From Desulfuromonadaceae bacterium (GTDB lineage: Bacteria > Desulfobacterota > Desulfuromonadia > Desulfuromonadales > Geopsychrobacteraceae), in assembly GCA_013138655.1 (NCBI GenBank), contig WTCI01000179.1, forward strand, positions 1-20,236: a DNA stretch of 20,236 bases, written 5' to 3'. The stretch's first letter is position 1; each line of letters begins with the position of its first letter. The position numbers and the translations under genes were made by a program. Of this stretch, positions 2,717 to 20,236 are shown one piece after another. The notes under the pieces are model-generated. The model ran no database searches. It was given only the letters and a program-made list of their open reading frames with translations, and was not told the DNA's origin.

Positions 2717-4741
2717 ATGACAAATATTTTTTCTCTCATTACCGAAAGCAGTGCTGCGAAAAGTACCAGTTCCATTAATCGCAGTGTCCTTTATTCTCTA
2801 GCTGGTCTTTTGCTCGGGGTTTCTGCGCCGATCGGTTGGATGCTGGTGCGTTTGGTTGTGTTTTATGACCCCGCGTTGTCGCTCTGGCAACAGACCATTG
2901 GCAATGTCCTGTTGAGTAACGTCAATATTGCCTTATTTCTTTATATGGGTGGAGGTACGGCCGTAGTCCTGGCGACTTTCGGCTATTTTATCGGTCGGGC
3001 TGCCGAACAAATCCATGCCCGGGCGACTAAACTCAACGAAATGAATATCACTGTAGCCAGCCAGAAAGAGGAGTTTGAACGAAAATATCGTGAATTGAAT
3101 GCCCGTATCGAAAACTTTCACGCGATCAGTGCAGGCATTTTAAAAACCACGGATTTACAGGAGCTGGTTGCTTTAACCGGAAACGGTTTGAGAGAGGTTG
3201 TCGATTATGATCGAGTGAACATCCTCTTAGTTGACCATGAACTCAAAGAGATTCGCCTGTCAAGCTGCCTGAGTCGTGATGGGGCGACAGATACTTCTGT
3301 GACGATACCTCTCGATGATCGGGCTGGTGTTCTCTATAAGACGGTCACTGAGATGCGGCATTATCTGATTGATGATATCGCCCTGATGACCCCTGATTTT
3401 CGGCTTAAACCTCCTTGTGACAGTATTGCAGCCTTGCGTGCAAAATGTTTTCTGGTTTGCCCGGTGATCGTTAGCGGTGTTGTTGAAATGATCATGACCG
3501 TTGATAATAAACTGACTGGGAACCCCTTGGACGAGGACGATGTAGATACCCTCAAACTGTTTGCTTCGCAACTTTCCGGAAGCATCACCCGATTACGCCT
3601 TTTCAGTGCTATCGAATCTTTGACCAAAGAACTGGAACGTACCTTTGGTCAACTCATGCAGTATCGCCAGGACAACCAGATTCTGATCAAAACCCTGAAA
3701 CGTGCATCAGCCTCAACCATTAGGCTGATTGCTGACAATGCCAATTCGGCCGATGTGGTACGTGATACCGTCAATGCCACCCAGTCTGCGTCAACACAGA
3801 TTTCGGCATCGATTGACGAAGTCGGAGAAAGCATCAATCAACTCTCTGAATTTATGGATAAATCGATATCGGCAATGACCGAAATTGCTGCAACCATTAA
3901 AGAAGTTGATGACAACAGTGTCAGTTCAAATGAAATGTCGGAACAGGTGCTGGAGCAGGCAGAAGGTGGTGTGGTTTCGGTTCGGGAAACCGTGACCGGG
4001 CTCAAAGGGATTGCCCGGGGGGTCGCTGAGGCGAACGAAAAAATTGATCAATTGTCGCGTTGTGGAGATGAAATCAACACAATCACAACGGTTATCACGG
4101 AAATCGCGCAAAAAACCAACTTGCTGGCATTAAATGCTGCGATCATCGCGGCGCAAGCCGGTGAGCATGGGCGTTCATTTGCTGTCGTCGCGGAAGAAAT
4201 TCGTGGGCTCTCGCAAAAAACGGCCCATTCTTCAGAAGCAATTACTCAGTTGATTCGTGATATGCACACCAATACCTCTGAGGTTGTGCATCAGGTCTGC
4301 CATGTTGAATCTTTGGTGACACAGGGGGTTGCTCTTGGCGGAAAAACCGAGCAGTCACTGGAGCAGATTTTATCAAGTGCGACGACCGCCAAAGATATGT
4401 CGAAAAATATTCGCCATGCGACCCGCGAAGTTTCCCGGTCTGCTGAATTTGTCACCAATTCAATTGAAGAATTGGGTGAGATGACAGAGCAGGTCTCAAC
4501 TGCTTCTCGTGAACAGGCCCAGGGAGTTCACGGGATTGTCCGTTCGATCGAAGACATCCGCACGATGGCCGATGAGATGGCAAATGTTGCGATACAGCAG
4601 CGTCAGGACAGCCGTGATATTGAGATGGCTGTGGAATCGGTCGCAGATATGTCCAAGCAGATTTTTGACGAAATGGACGCGCGTAGCGTACAGAGCCAAA
4701 CGGTTATTCGCCAATTGAAACAGCTTAAAGAGACGGAATAG
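2717..4741 (+). CDS. Methyl-accepting chemotaxis protein with cytoplasmic GAF sensor domain
   Basis: A 674-residue chemoreceptor. Two hydrophobic helices (about residues 23-50 and 70-94) are joined by only a short loop, so there is no real periplasmic sensor. A coiled segment leads to a GAF domain (about 133-294), the likely ligand- or redox-sensing part. The long C-terminal signalling hairpin has its tip at EIAQKTNLLALNAA (about 461-475) and couples to CheA/CheW. No HAMP domain is obvious and there is no C-terminal CheR-binding pentapeptide (it ends KQLKETE). The tip reads NAAIIAAQAGE where most receptors have NAAVEAARAGE, so two trimer-contact positions are altered (I477, Q480). The ATG at 2717 is chosen because AGGG at 2707-2710 lies 6 bases upstream; an upstream TTG at 2693 has no such site. 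A terminator follows the gene. Confidence 0.93.
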   Translation: MTNIFSLITESSAAKSTSSINRSVLYSLAGLLLGVSAPIGWMLVRLVVFYDPALSLWQQTIGNVLLSNVNIALFLYMGGGTAVVLATFGYFIGRAAEQIHARATKLNEMNITVASQKEEFERKYRELNARIENFHAISAGILKTTDLQELVALTGNGLREVVDYDRVNILLVDHELKEIRLSSCLSRDGATDTSVTIPLDDRAGVLYKTVTEMRHYLIDDIALMTPDFRLKPPCDSIAALRAKCFLVCPVIVSGVVEMIMTVDNKLTGNPLDEDDVDTLKLFASQLSGSITRLRLFSAIESLTKELERTFGQLMQYRQDNQILIKTLKRASASTIRLIADNANSADVVRDTVNATQSASTQISASIDEVGESINQLSEFMDKSISAMTEIAATIKEVDDNSVSSNEMSEQVLEQAEGGVVSVRETVTGLKGIARGVAEANEKIDQLSRCGDEINTITTVITEIAQKTNLLALNAAIIAAQAGEHGRSFAVVAEEIRGLSQKTAHSSEAITQLIRDMHTNTSEVVHQVCHVESLVTQGVALGGKTEQSLEQILSSATTAKDMSKNIRHATREVSRSAEFVTNSIEELGEMTEQVSTASREQAQGVHGIVRSIEDIRTMADEMANVAIQQRQDSRDIEMAVESVADMSKQIFDEMDARSVQSQTVIRQLKQLKETE

Positions 4742-4767
4742 AAGATTCCTTTTCGTCGACTTCGGGA

Positions 4768-4796
4768 AGCCTCTGAATGTGTATCAGGGGCTTTTT
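4768..4796 (+). terminator. Intrinsic terminator after the GAF chemoreceptor gene
   Basis: A 9-base-pair stem (AGCCTCTGA at 4768-4776 with TCAGGGGCT at 4784-4792, one G-T pair) and a 7-base loop are followed by a run of five T. It lies 27 bases after the stop of the chemoreceptor gene and probably ends the exbB-exbD-pfk-mcp transcript. Confidence 0.85.
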
Positions 4797-4799
4797 ATT

Positions 4800-4920
4800 G
4801 GTTTGCCCAGCGGAGCGGGCAACATTGCGCAGCCCGATACCTGGTCAGACCCGTGAGAATGGGGTTAGGGAGCCCGTATGTACGGTTCTGCGGGAGGTGT
4901 GAGGCACACCTCCCGATGTA
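4800..4920 (+). mobile_element. Group II intron-like 3' remnant (domain V/VI-like structures)
   Basis: A compact run of RNA-like structure without coding potential. GAGCCCGTATGTACGGTTC (4870-4888) looks like a shortened domain V of a bacterial group II intron, which normally starts GAGCC and ends GGUUC around a 34-base hairpin. Here the upper stem and the two-base bulge are missing, so splicing activity is not expected. It is preceded by GTGAGAATGGGGTTAG, similar to the usual lead-in, and followed by a perfect 11-pair hairpin with an AGG loop (4891-4915) in the place of domain VI. A further hairpin, TTGCCC...GGGCAA, lies at about 4803-4822. No reverse transcriptase remains. The position right behind an intrinsic terminator is what class IIC introns prefer. 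The resemblance is from recognition, not from a covariance search. Confidence 0.5.
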
Positions 4921-4945
4921 AAAATTTTGGTAAATTGGTCTGACC
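4843..4945. repeat. GGTCAGACC / GGTCTGACC pair flanking the intron-like structures
   Basis: Two 9-base words, GGTCAGACC (4843-4851) and GGTCTGACC (4937-4945), are exact inverted copies of each other and frame the domain V/VI-like hairpins. Each is itself a GGTC-N-GACC palindrome, so they are also near-direct repeats. They could form the base of a long-range stem or be unrelated protein-binding palindromes. The second copy lies 3-11 bases upstream of the -35 box at 4948. Confidence 0.4.
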
Positions 4946-4947
4946 GA

Positions 4948-4976
4948 TTGATTTGTGTCGCTATTTCGGTTAGATT
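4948..4976 (+). promoter_or_regulatory. Candidate sigma70 promoter for the TPR gene
   Basis: TTGATT (4948-4953) and TAGATT (4971-4976) have an ideal 17-base spacer, each matching four of six positions. A start near 4983 would leave about 30 bases before the ATG at 5014. It sits just after the GGTCTGACC palindrome, which could serve as an operator. Motif match only. Confidence 0.4.
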
Positions 4977-5013
4977 CTTGTGTCATTATACCTCTTTAGA
5001 CGGAATTGATATC

Positions 5014-5982
5014 ATGCTGAACGTTGACCAACCCCTGGATCCAGTCGAATACGGTTTCTGGTTGCCGCCGGAAGGAATGACCATTACCACCGGACCGGAT
5101 AACGAAGAGATTGAAATTCCGCAGATCCTTTTGCCGATTCACAAGGCTGAATTAAACGAATCTCCCGATCCTTCGGAAAAAGTCATTGGTGAAGGGATCT
5201 ATGACTATCTACGCCGTTTTCCGGATTGTCCGAATAACAGTGACTATGCGCGTATCCTGAGCGCTGCCTATCCTTTTTATATCTCAGATCTCGGCTCCCA
5301 AATTATTATGCTTGAGGTCAGGGAGGTTGATCCGCTTTACATCCGGCGTAAAATCAGCATGCTGAAAATCCTGGCCCTCCTGGAACCTGAGAATTACGGG
5401 CTGCTGCAACGCATCGGCATTGCCTGTTTTGAGCTGGCAATGATTTACACTGAGTTGATCAACGTGCGGCGTGAGCTGGCGGCCGCGCGACTTTGGCTGG
5501 AAAAAGCTCGGAGAAAACTTCCGGAAGAGATCGGCACATTGAATTATCTCGGCCAGGTTTGCTATTTGACCGGTGCCTATCCACAGGCCAAATTGTACTG
5601 GCAGACCATGTCTGATAGGCTTGACGACGGTGATGTCAAAGTCGAATTGCAACGTCGCATTGAAAAAGTTGCCTCCGGGCAACTGCCCGAGCAGCCTCTG
5701 ATCGACAGCCTTGAAGCCATCGGCATCGCCATGGAACATTATCATGTCGAGGAGTACCCGGAAGCCTGCATGATCATGGAACGCCTGGAAGAAGAAGGCC
5801 GTTTGCCTGATGAACTGCCTAACCCGGAGTTTTTCTACTTTCTCGGACTTTGCCGAGAAAAAACTACCGATCCAGCTGGTGCTTTTGAATCTTACATGAA
5901 AACGCAACAACTTGATCCAGCGCATCAAGCCGCCCAAGAAGGTCTGGACCGTATCACCGATAATAATCGGGAGTTGTCATGA
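5014..5982 (+). CDS. TPR-like tetratricopeptide protein of unknown function
   Basis: A 322-residue soluble protein without a signal peptide or membrane segment. The first ~90 residues are acidic and proline-rich (MLNVDQPLDPVEYGFW). The rest is helical, with paired helices of the tetratricopeptide type, for example around IGTLNYLGQVCYLTGAYPQAKLYW (about 185-207) and a C-terminal PEFFYFLGLCREKTTDPAGAFESYMKTQQLDP. Such repeats usually mediate protein contacts. I do not recognise a named family. The ATG at 5014 is chosen over an upstream in-frame ATG at 4927, which would place the promoter-like segment and part of the intron-like remnant's flank inside the gene; a GGAA at 5002-5005 gives a weak ribosome site. 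Its stop codon overlaps the start of a 59-residue membrane protein as ATGA, pointing to translational coupling. Confidence 0.8.
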   Translation: MLNVDQPLDPVEYGFWLPPEGMTITTGPDNEEIEIPQILLPIHKAELNESPDPSEKVIGEGIYDYLRRFPDCPNNSDYARILSAAYPFYISDLGSQIIMLEVREVDPLYIRRKISMLKILALLEPENYGLLQRIGIACFELAMIYTELINVRRELAAARLWLEKARRKLPEEIGTLNYLGQVCYLTGAYPQAKLYWQTMSDRLDDGDVKVELQRRIEKVASGQLPEQPLIDSLEAIGIAMEHYHVEEYPEACMIMERLEEEGRLPDELPNPEFFYFLGLCREKTTDPAGAFESYMKTQQLDPAHQAAQEGLDRITDNNRELS

Positions 5983-17893: not shown

Positions 17894-18217
17894 TCAGATG
17901 AACATCCCGGCCAGCCAGTACAACAGCATACCAATCAGCACGGTGCCGCCGAGACTACGGGTTTTTAGCGCAAAGATCAATGTTGGAATTGCCACCAGGA
18001 ATTCAGGTTTGCCAAGTTGCAGGCTGCGAGTTGCAGAATCGCTGAACAGTGATGGAGCAAGTAAAGCGCTGAGGATGGCTACCGGGATCAAGTCCAACCA
18101 ATCGACCAGCCATCGGGGTAACTGTTTGTGGGCCAGATAGAGCAGGGGGAGGGCCCGCGGCACGTAGGTCACCAACCCCATGCCGGAAAACAGGAAGAAA
18201 TAGTCAATAAAGGTCAT
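17894..18217 (-). CDS. azlD: AzlD-family branched-chain amino acid exporter small subunit
   Basis: A 107-residue protein with three to four transmembrane helices. TYVPRALPLLYLAHKQLPRWLVDWLDLIPVAILSALLAP is the conserved core of AzlD (BrnE-like) proteins. With AzlC it forms a two-part exporter of leucine, isoleucine and valine, or in some species methionine or azaleucine. Its start overlaps the azlC stop by 4 bases, so the two are translated together. No separate promoter is visible. Confidence 0.93.
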   Translation of the reverse strand: MTFIDYFFLFSGMGLVTYVPRALPLLYLAHKQLPRWLVDWLDLIPVAILSALLAPSLFSDSATRSLQLGKPEFLVAIPTLIFALKTRSLGGTVLIGMLLYWLAGMFI

Positions 18218-18891
18218 TTTCTCACCCGCTGGCGTCGCTTCAGGAAATAGCCGCAGGTTGCAGCACTCATTGACGCCCCGACGATATACGAGTCCCCGGG
18301 AATCAGCTGGTACCAGGCCACCGAGATCGCTGCTGCAAGCAAACCGGTGACAATGTAAATACGGCCCTGCAATTGAAACACCAGCAGGCAGATGAACATC
18401 CCGGTCAGGGCATAATCGATCCCGAATGCTCCCTGGGGGACGAATTGGCCGACCAGCGTCCCGGTCACCGTCGCCAGAATCCAGACTGCGTTAGCCAGAT
18501 GATTGACAACCAGGGCCCGCCAATGATCCCAGTTGCCGTCACGAAAACGTGTTATGTTGACGGCAAAACTCTCGTCGGTGATTCCATAGGAATAGAGCGC
18601 GAGAAACTTTCGACTGACCCCGGACAGGTAAACAGCCAAGGCCGAACTCATCAAGGTGTGGCGCAGATTGACAAAGAAGGTGGTGAGAATGATGGCAGGG
18701 ATAGCCGCCCCGGCGACCAGCATCGCCACACAGATAAACTGGGCGCTACCGGCAAAGACCAGCGTTGACATCATGGCGACCGCCCACCAGGGCAGCCCGG
18801 CTTTTTGGGCCAGCACTCCAAGGGCCAGGCCAATCGGAAAATAGCCGAGACAGATTGGCCAGGCCGCAGCAGCTCCTTCTTTTATGCGCAT
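18214..18891 (-). CDS. azlC: AzlC-family branched-chain amino acid exporter large subunit
   Basis: A 225-residue membrane protein of the AzlC/BrnF family. Typical segments are WPICLGYFPIGLALGVLAQKAGL at the N-terminus, VFAGSAQFICVAMLVAGA and FFVNLRHTLMSSAL, with seven or so hydrophobic helices over the full length. It works with AzlD to export branched-chain amino acids across the inner membrane. The start at 18891 matches the family's N-terminus, but no clear ribosome site precedes it. A terminator-like hairpin (18914-18949) sits in the leader 23 bases upstream and could be an attenuator or a terminator of the preceding gene. Confidence 0.93.
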   Translation of the reverse strand: MRIKEGAAAAWPICLGYFPIGLALGVLAQKAGLPWWAVAMMSTLVFAGSAQFICVAMLVAGAAIPAIILTTFFVNLRHTLMSSALAVYLSGVSRKFLALYSYGITDESFAVNITRFRDGNWDHWRALVVNHLANAVWILATVTGTLVGQFVPQGAFGIDYALTGMFICLLVFQLQGRIYIVTGLLAAAISVAWYQLIPGDSYIVGASMSAATCGYFLKRRQRVRK

Positions 18892-19041: not shown

Positions 19042-19758
19042 TTATTTGACGGGCAGACCGGATTTAAGCCATTTCTGCATTCCACCATCCAGCAGGGCGA
19101 GATCGCTCAACCCTTTCATTGAAAAATAGCGATAAGCAACACCAGCACGTTTACCGTTCAGGTCAACAATAACAAGCTTCTTGTCTTTCGGCAAACTATC
19201 AACGATACCAGTGAGCTGGCTCAGGTTGGCATTGACCTTTTCAGCATCAATAGAATTTTTGGCCAGTTCGTATGCCGGGCGTATATCGACAATAACAAGA
19301 TCGGCACCACCGTCAATCATCTCTTTGAGTTTTTTTGCACTGATTTTGTTGATCTTAATTTTGGGCAATTTTTCAATAGTTGTTGTCGGATACCCTGCCT
19401 TTAACCAGGCCGGCAGCCCATCACGATAAGCGTAGACTTTGCTATAACCCATTTCATCAGCCAAACTGGCTGAAGTAACAGTAGCCGTTCATTTTCGTCC
19501 AAGGCAATAAAATGCAAGAGGTGTACTCTTGTCCGCAGGCAATTTCGTTTCGAATTCAGGATTAGAAATGTTAACGGAACCTGTAATGTGAAGATTGTTA
19601 TACTCAATGAGACTCAGTGGATTGATGACAAGAATATCACCACTATCCATTTTAGCTTTGAGATCTGCGGTTGAGATCTCAGACCATTTTGCAAAAGCGG
19701 TACTTGATACCGCCAAGACTAGAACACTGACACATAGAAAAATCCAACACCGTTTCAT
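19042..19758 (-). CDS. Secreted tandem rhodanese with in-frame UGA, candidate selenoprotein
   Basis: Reading the TGA at 19489-19491 as selenocysteine gives one 238-residue protein. A signal peptide (MKRCWIFLCVSVLVLAVSS, cut near AFA-KW) sends it to the periplasm. The first rhodanese domain (about 26-120) holds the active loop FYCLGRKU at 83-90. Cys85 is the expected sulfur-carrying Cys, and the UGA (residue 90) falls where related periplasmic rhodaneses have the second Cys of a CxxxKC loop. The sequence after the UGA continues the fold without a gap (SLADEMGYSKVYAYRDGLPAWLKAGYP). The second domain (about 135-238) has Asp-Leu-Asn-Gly-Lys-Arg at its loop, with no Cys, and is probably not catalytic. 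A stem-loop begins 15 bases after the UGA. AGGG precedes the ATG by 6 bases. Alternatives are a recent nonsense mutation or a sequencing error. The protein would handle sulfane sulfur or redox chemistry; the substrate is unknown. Confidence 0.8.
19455..19491 (-). promoter_or_regulatory. Candidate bacterial SECIS element with its UGA
   Basis: Downstream of the UGA (19489-19491, minus strand) a perfect six-pair stem, TCAGCC (19468-19473) with GGCTGA (19457-19462), carries the loop AGTTT. One more C-G pair can form beyond a T-T mismatch. The loop begins 22 bases after the UGA and has G then U at its second and third positions, as in the GGUCU loop of E. coli fdhF. The bulged U of fdhF is not clearly matched. 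Distance, loop size and loop G fit known bacterial SECIS rules; SelB binding is inferred. Confidence 0.6.
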
Positions 19759-19794: not shown

Positions 19795-20236
19795 TCATGC
19801 ACCCCACTCCAGCAACGCTGAAGCTTCACCTGTTGACTTACTGTTTTCATCGGTATTCATAGTTAGACTCTGCTCATCACGTAATTTGAACTGAGACAGC
19901 AACTCTCGCAGCTTTTCAGCCTGACCGGAAAGCTGTTCAGAGGCAGCCGCACTTTCTTCTGCATCGGCTGTATTCGCCTGTGTTGTACGGTCAATTTGCT
20001 CAACACCGACGTTGATCTGTGAAAGTCCCTGCGCCTGTTCATTACTTGACCTTGCAATATCCGAAACCAGACCAGAAACCTCCGAAATCGAATCTACAAT
20101 GCTGGATAGCGCCTGATCTGTCCGATCAGCTATATCGCTTCCTTTTTTCACCCTATCGACAGACCCCTGAATGAGATCAGCCGTTTCACTTGCAGCCTTG
20201 GCACTGCGGGCAGCAAGGTTTCGCACCTCTTCTGCA
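19795..20236 (-). CDS. Methyl-accepting chemotaxis protein, C-terminal part
   Basis: The last ~146 residues of a chemoreceptor whose start lies beyond the right edge. It opens with AEEVRNLAARSAKAASETADLI, which lies just after the signalling tip in the family. Long heptad-patterned helices follow, with methylation-helix motifs (SSNEQAQGLSQINVGVEQID and ESAAASEQLSGQAEKLRELL). The C-terminal tail (ALLEWGA) has no CheR-binding pentapeptide. It differs from the GAF receptor at 2717-4741, in keeping with the normal AEEVRNLA here against AEEIRGLS there. The rhodanese gene starts 36 bases downstream in the same direction, so the two may be cotranscribed. Confidence 0.93.
   Translation of the reverse strand, partial: AEEVRNLAARSAKAASETADLIQGSVDRVKKGSDIADRTDQALSSIVDSISEVSGLVSDIARSSNEQAQGLSQINVGVEQIDRTTQANTADAEESAAASEQLSGQAEKLRELLSQFKLRDEQSLTMNTDENSKSTGEASALLEWGA

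Follow-up and report, generated by a model that had tools for sequence, protein, structure and literature searches.

The exported, UGA-decoding tandem rhodanese encoded in the window, the 20,236-nucleotide stretch of Desulfuromonadaceae bacterium contig WTCI01000179.1 analysed here, is moderately likely to form a two-gene sensing module with a single family of chemoreceptors, which taken as a whole is the best explanation of our data. The protein is best read as a Cys/Sec redox co-receptor in the periplasm that serves a dedicated chemoreceptor, a partnership that appears likely. The rhodanese gene lies on the minus strand (19042..19758), as do all the window features described below, and runs from ATG to TAA over 238 residues with a single in-frame UGA. 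The first-pass annotation had joined two minus-strand open reading frames of 89 and 140 residues through one TGA into this frame, and we likewise found no other in-frame stop. The N-terminus resembles a signal peptide, as had been claimed, although this was judged by eye from the sequence (putative residues 1–23, cleavage after AFA, 19690..19758; pLDDT 55–56 in the structure model). Rhodanese domain 1 (residues 30–120, 19399..19671; Pfam PF00581 and the structure model) carries the C-x4-U active-site loop, in which the TGC codon of Cys85 (19504..19506) marks the rhodanese catalytic Cys position and UGA codon 90 (19489..19491) is assigned to selenocysteine from sequence and alignment. Rhodanese domain 2 (about residues 136–238, 19045..19353; alignment and structure model) has Asp199 (19162-19164), not Cys, at its catalytic position, where the Cys relatives of the FYCLG group have Cys.

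Both proposed rhodanese domains were recovered as PF00581 stretches in a Pfam scan (83.4 bits; gathering score 22.2), and rhodanese structures matched both halves of the structure model of the 238-residue protein (mean pLDDT 91.7). The score above gathering, the rhodanese fold of the model and the Cys85 of the active-site loop together place the protein in the rhodanese family. Cys85, which had been described as retained, is Cys in all 50 aligned tandem rows. The loop had been given as FYCxxxKC, which fits the window (FYC85LGRKU90) but not the relatives, where the residue before Sec is K, T, R, D or S; judging from the aligned sequences, the conserved pattern is C-x4-U/C.

Upstream of the rhodanese gene and on the same strand is the 3' end of a chemoreceptor (MCP) gene (19795..20236), which encodes an MCP signalling domain (PF00015) and is cut by the contig end; a full copy is present in the sister species (L031). 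Its stop codon is separated from the rhodanese ATG by 36 bases. We found that a same-strand MCP gene directly adjoins 11 of the 13 Sec genes in the FYCLG group, counting that of the window: it lies upstream in the window and in L031–L034, four relatives from the same family, downstream in L100, L104, L105 and L106, and on both sides in L102 and L103. The MCP gene is thus upstream in one family and downstream in four others. At L101 (G025) there was no MCP within about 6 kb on each side, and at L035 the contig ends at the rhodanese gene; these are the two exceptions. By comparison, an adjoining MCP would be expected at about 0.7% of loci, a figure derived from 26 genomes with 3 to 20 MCP genes each on the assumption of 1000 genes per megabase. 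None of 11 Cys loci of the FYCLG group (12 Cys genes with L017 left out) had an MCP neighbour up to 6 kb on each side, the stretches of L110 and L119 being shorter on one side. One genome (G008) has two Sec rhodanese genes, on contigs C214 and C99, and a separate receptor of the same family lies downstream of each (L006/L100 and L050/L105).

The deeper Sec loci L113 (FYCMG) and L115 (IYCMG and FHCLS) are adjoined by histidine (sensor) kinases instead. Cys locus L109 neighbours a PAS histidine kinase, and the Cys relatives L133 and L134 (FYCKGPKC, another group) have an MCP of a different kind downstream, which shows that a sensory neighbour is not tied to Sec. Such neighbours may be a general trait of the wider rhodanese family, the strict pair being, as far as gene order indicates, a feature of the FYCLG Sec branch. 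Head-to-tail pairs of Sec tandem rhodanese genes were also observed at L115:4302 and 5135 (IYCMGLDU, FHCLSDRU), followed by a histidine kinase on the same strand, and at L135:5280 and 4463 (TYCMGHDU, FHCLSERU). Downstream of the rhodanese gene, the window (17894-18891) and the sister locus L031 carry AzlC/AzlD branched-chain amino acid transport genes; we do not consider them part of the module because other genes occupy that place in L032–L034.

In ten adjoining receptors from five taxonomic families (L031–L034, L100, L104, L105, L106 and the downstream receptors of L102 and L103), the first 205 residues can be aligned; the upstream receptors of L102 and L103 group apart, together with another receptor of L103. 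Members of this sensory-domain family matched each other at 1.2e-8 or better (8 of 10 members), and the best of 38 other MCPs reached E 0.033. The comparison set derives from 62 MCP matches in G008, G042, G376 and G053, 7 of which lie beside the rhodanese or in its receptor cluster; 38 of the remaining 55, taken among the matches listed, were tested. When a profile of the ten sensory domains was searched against 136 genomes of the order, it returned nine strong matches (232–278 bits, inflated in that the profile was built from adjoining receptors themselves), all of which adjoin a Sec rhodanese. The remaining 17 matches scored 30–62 bits and were unpaired, some of them in genomes that carry the Cys form (G090, G016, G133). 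This search revealed no close unpaired family member in the 136 genomes and no match at all in G025, the genome of L101. At L133 and L134, the sensory part of the downstream MCP is weakly like the family (best E about 1e-4), and another MCP in each stretch matched it at 3e-7 to 3e-5.

The sensory domain is predicted to be a four-helix bundle, and the receptor neighbours carry HAMP (PF00672) and MCP signalling (PF00015) domains. No invariant Cys was present in the alignment of the ten sensory domains, which favours binding over thiol transfer to the receptor. The downstream receptor of L102 (6864-9029) ends in a hemerythrin domain, and its upstream receptor (3808-5976) has a CZB zinc-binding match under the cut-off. 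By gene comparison, the rhodanese forms a conserved gene pair with one receptor family, as expected of an accessory protein or co-receptor, and from adjacency, exclusivity and the change of side we infer that the two proteins work together.

The main competing explanation, which we consider rather unlikely, is that the rhodanese is an ordinary periplasmic selenoenzyme, a thiol-disulfide or persulfide reductase or a sulfurtransferase that protects or feeds the cell, and that the chemoreceptor is merely co-regulated and responds alone to the same chemical. Such an enzyme would suit the resemblance of Cys85 and Sec90 to a redox pair, the retention of a Sec rhodanese without the receptor in G025 and the 11 examined Cys loci without an MCP neighbour, and the portions of reviews available to us present rhodanese selenoproteins without sensory partners; yet all strong receptor-domain matches in the 136 genomes sit beside the rhodanese, and the pairing persists where the receptor has switched sides, both of which speak against this explanation.

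For the co-receptor reading we can offer a mechanism only tentatively, at somewhat less than even odds: a Cys85/Sec90 switch would sense sulfane sulfur or redox state and bind the four-helix sensory domain, resulting in selenium-dependent chemotaxis. In the periplasm, a persulfide would form on Cys85 from sulfane sulfur, or an adduct from another soft electrophile, and Sec90 would attack it from across the same loop to release sulfide. The resulting Cys85–Sec90 selenenylsulfide would be re-reduced by a periplasmic thiol. This formation of a persulfide at Cys85 and its resolution by Sec90 would follow from the chemistry of known rhodaneses and Sec-Cys pairs. Domain 2, with Asp in place of the catalytic Cys, could serve in docking or regulation. 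Once loaded or oxidised, the rhodanese might contact the sensory domain and change receptor signalling, steering the cell along a sulfur-compound or redox gradient. The Desulfuromonadales have a sulfur-reducing habit, and it is for this reason that we guess at such a ligand. At stake are the means by which these anaerobes locate sulfur compounds or redox conditions, and whether Sec is used in signalling as well as in catalysis. Predicted rhodanese selenoproteins are listed in reviews, which in the portions available to us describe the functions of most predicted selenoproteins as not clear; a conserved partner provides a testable hypothesis for one of them.

That codon 90 is read as selenocysteine is, on comparative grounds, nearly certain. 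This reading, proposed by the first-pass annotation, is supported by the UGA/Cys column, by a SECIS-like hairpin with compensatory changes and by selA, selB and selD in the genome. The suggestion that the UGA pairs with Cys in homologues held when the alignment was made: among 50 tandem rows, window included, 20 have UGA at this column, 29 have Cys and one (L092) has Gly. On a tree built without the UGA column there were five switches between Sec and Cys, at least four of them forced by well-supported branches. The same TGA is present in the sister species (97% protein identity) and in three members of the same family (68–77%). Since it stands in other genomes, a sequencing slip, which resequencing would correct to TGC or TGG, is unlikely. 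Among the 136 genomes of the order, full-length relatives occur with exactly one TGA or with none; by motif, 11 of these genomes carry the FYCLG Sec form, G008 in two copies, and 12 carry the FYCLG Cys form. Further relatives were found in the phylum and class. In domain 2, Asp occupies the position in 18 of the 20 Sec rows, the exceptions L095 and L126 having Cys there, and Cys occupies it in 23 of the 29 Cys rows. We do not claim a coupling of Sec with the domain-2 Asp, as only one of four independent tree pairs differs in both traits (sign test p = 1).

Just 3' of the UGA we identified by covariation a SECIS-like stem-loop (19457..19473) in which columns 19–25, counted from the U of the UGA, pair with columns 29–35 around an apical GUU. 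The bacterial SECIS consensus is one of distance from the UGA and of a G in the loop. The apical loop lies 22 bases past the UGA, a distance that is fixed across the Sec genes, and loop position G26 is nearly invariant in the 20 Sec genes, so that the hairpin has the position and the apical G of a bacterial selenoprotein gene. The sequence evidence supports a role for this hairpin in directing the reading of UGA codon 90 as selenocysteine. Across these 20 genes (19 distinct), 95.6% of the cells in six pairs are paired, and the covariation score is 0.433 with 14 cells changed on both sides. None of 500 shuffles reached 0.433, and sliding the partner by 1 to 3 columns left at most 59.6% of cells paired. 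Because related sequences can exceed such shuffles, the Cys genes serve as the control that matters: in 12 of them, 77.8% of cells were paired and the covariation score was 0.111 with 3 two-sided cells, no better than shuffles. RNAalifold, to which the stem was not supplied, recovered it from the Sec genes but not from the Cys genes. Two pairs, 22-32 and 23-31, are invariant throughout both sets, as they lie inside conserved Ala codons; they raise the paired percentage in both and leave the covariation unaffected. Folding energy alone was rejected as proof of a SECIS element because the z-scores are weak (-2.14 for the window and -0.77 to -0.09 in five other Sec genes), and the case thus rests on covariation.

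Viewed gene by gene, all five core pairs are also possible in two of the 12 Cys genes (L017, L019), and among the 20 Sec genes L095 has four of them. Of 5766 in-frame positions in these genes, 49 carry the five core pairs, true sites included. The gene-by-gene count is without L053, L055, L128 and L130, and its labels L096–L099 denote the neighbouring gene of each pair, with four distinct genes covered. A hairpin model (R1) was applied to eight held-out single-domain Sec rhodaneses. It matched the UGA site in the four of FYCSG type (E = 0.0015, 0.0018, 0.021 and 0.4), missed the four of FYCR type and matched none of the 12 Cys loci at E up to 1. In L051, R1 matched away from the UGA at E 0.37, so by E-value the weakest FYCSG match (0.4) is no better than chance. 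With four of eight held-out sites found and the FYCR type missed, R1 was rejected as a general SECIS detector. A scan for promoters and terminators gave a single site resembling each, which does not exceed the yield from shuffled sequences.

The expected selenocysteine machinery was recovered in part. A single contig of the genome that contains the window (G000:C84:6134-10566) carries selD, selB and selA together, all three scoring above their curated cut-offs, and SelD has a UGA of its own, in SGUAAK; selC, the tRNA-Sec gene, was not found over the cut-off in this 364-contig, 93% complete draft. Eight of ten genomes of the genus have a tRNA-Sec over the cut-off, and the copy in the sister (G080) was confirmed by ARAGORN. 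The 2.2 kb around the sister's tRNA-Sec had no match in G000, in a search run without a control, and the sister's rhodanese region matches the window at 92–98%. The simplest reading is that the missing tRNA-Sec is likely a gap in the draft assembly.

Two further readings of the TGA are both very improbable. In the first, the UGA would be read in this lineage as Trp, as Cys by misreading, or bypassed without a SECIS element. A metagenomic relative (P0002, 69% identity, 2786-base contig) is indeed listed with Trp at the Sec column, although table-4 translation of a TGA would give exactly that residue and may account for it, a real TGG being the alternative. None of the 50 aligned rows, to which P0002 does not belong, has Trp; the hairpin covaries, the Sec machinery is present in the genome, and TGA ends 9 of the 20 window open reading frames taken as genes, on which count general UGA reassignment was rejected. 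The second, a true stop with the 89- and 140-residue pieces as separate products of a split gene or pseudogene, accords with the 11 of 19 database matches that are pieces of 136–140 residues (the three that were read start after the UGA), but it was rejected on the common TGA, which recurs in several families within the order and also beyond it, and on low dN/dS both sides of the TGA where computable, and the break falls inside a rhodanese domain of a frame otherwise free of stops. Among five near relatives, dN/dS could be computed on both sides of the TGA for three of the ten pairs, two of them with dS near saturation; the values before and after it were 0.08/0.08, 0.08/0.08 and 0.08/0.06. 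The near-identical pair L001-L002 gave 0.49 downstream of the UGA, a value resting on very few changes. The 136–140-residue database entries show that annotation splits such genes, and for a single-domain FYCSGxTU relative 37 of 42 database matches are pieces of 89–95 residues, 94 being the length up to its UGA.

The class had been described as not wholly new, and rhodanese selenoproteins are indeed known. A 2026 review (PMC13188914), in the portion available to us, gives five forms: UxxS, UxxG, CxU, UxxG and UxxxxU. An NCBIfam model is named for two of them, NF041203 and NF045694, and the window protein scores under the cut-off of each. The C-x4-U tandem form is a variant among these known rhodanese selenoproteins. 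Among the matches listed in our literature search, there was no link between a rhodanese or selenoprotein and a chemoreceptor; Haft and Tolstoy 2025 may overlap with the present work. Form 1 (UxxS, PF00581, WP_010941598.1) is described in the available part of the review as a predicted bacterial rhodanese selenoprotein (PMC13188914). In four single-domain genes of family f22, which we take for Geobacteraceae, FYCSGxTU precedes RGS (three genes) or GQS (one gene). This agrees with UxxS, and the genes may represent form 1, the WP_010941598.1 family. These FYCSG genes share the C-x4-U spacing and hairpin position of the window gene and are single-domain, whereas the window protein is a tandem. 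FYCSGxTU rhodanese selenoproteins were observed at the f22 loci L127–L130 and also at L126.

TsoB (NF045694; form 5, UxxxxU) is, in the same portion of that review, a rhodanese/DsbD fusion-like selenoprotein (PMC13188914). It has the same loop spacing, and its N-terminal part matches window residues 29–131. TsoB differs in having Sec at both loop positions and in being named as a DsbD fusion, whereas the window protein has Cys then Sec and a second rhodanese domain; the latter scored 42.7 bits against NF045694, far from the cut-off of 805. The best NCBIfam match by E-value (4e-21) is rhodanese_LYCAU (NF041203, form 3), also a rhodanese-related (seleno)protein, which has C-x-U where the window protein has C-x4-U; the score of 75 bits lies under the cut-off of 115. 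Short C-x-U rhodaneses like form 3 (LYCAU, LYCTU or FYCAU) occur in the same order at L054, L056–L060, L063 and L064.

Among known structures, the tandem rhodanese 6mxv and the sulfurtransferases 1e0c and 1rhd place rhodanese folds over both halves of the chain, but the whole does not superpose on 6mxv (rmsd 11.2 over 208 residues). Classical rhodaneses have their catalytic Cys in the C-terminal domain, whereas that of the window protein is in the N-terminal domain. The partner receptors resemble other MCPs (PF00015, PF00672) in their HAMP and signalling domains and in the predicted four-helix bundle of the sensory part, and Pfam 4HB_MCP_1 was over its cut-off in L031 only, among the family members scanned. 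They differ from other MCPs in that their sensory-domain family is tied to the Sec rhodanese.
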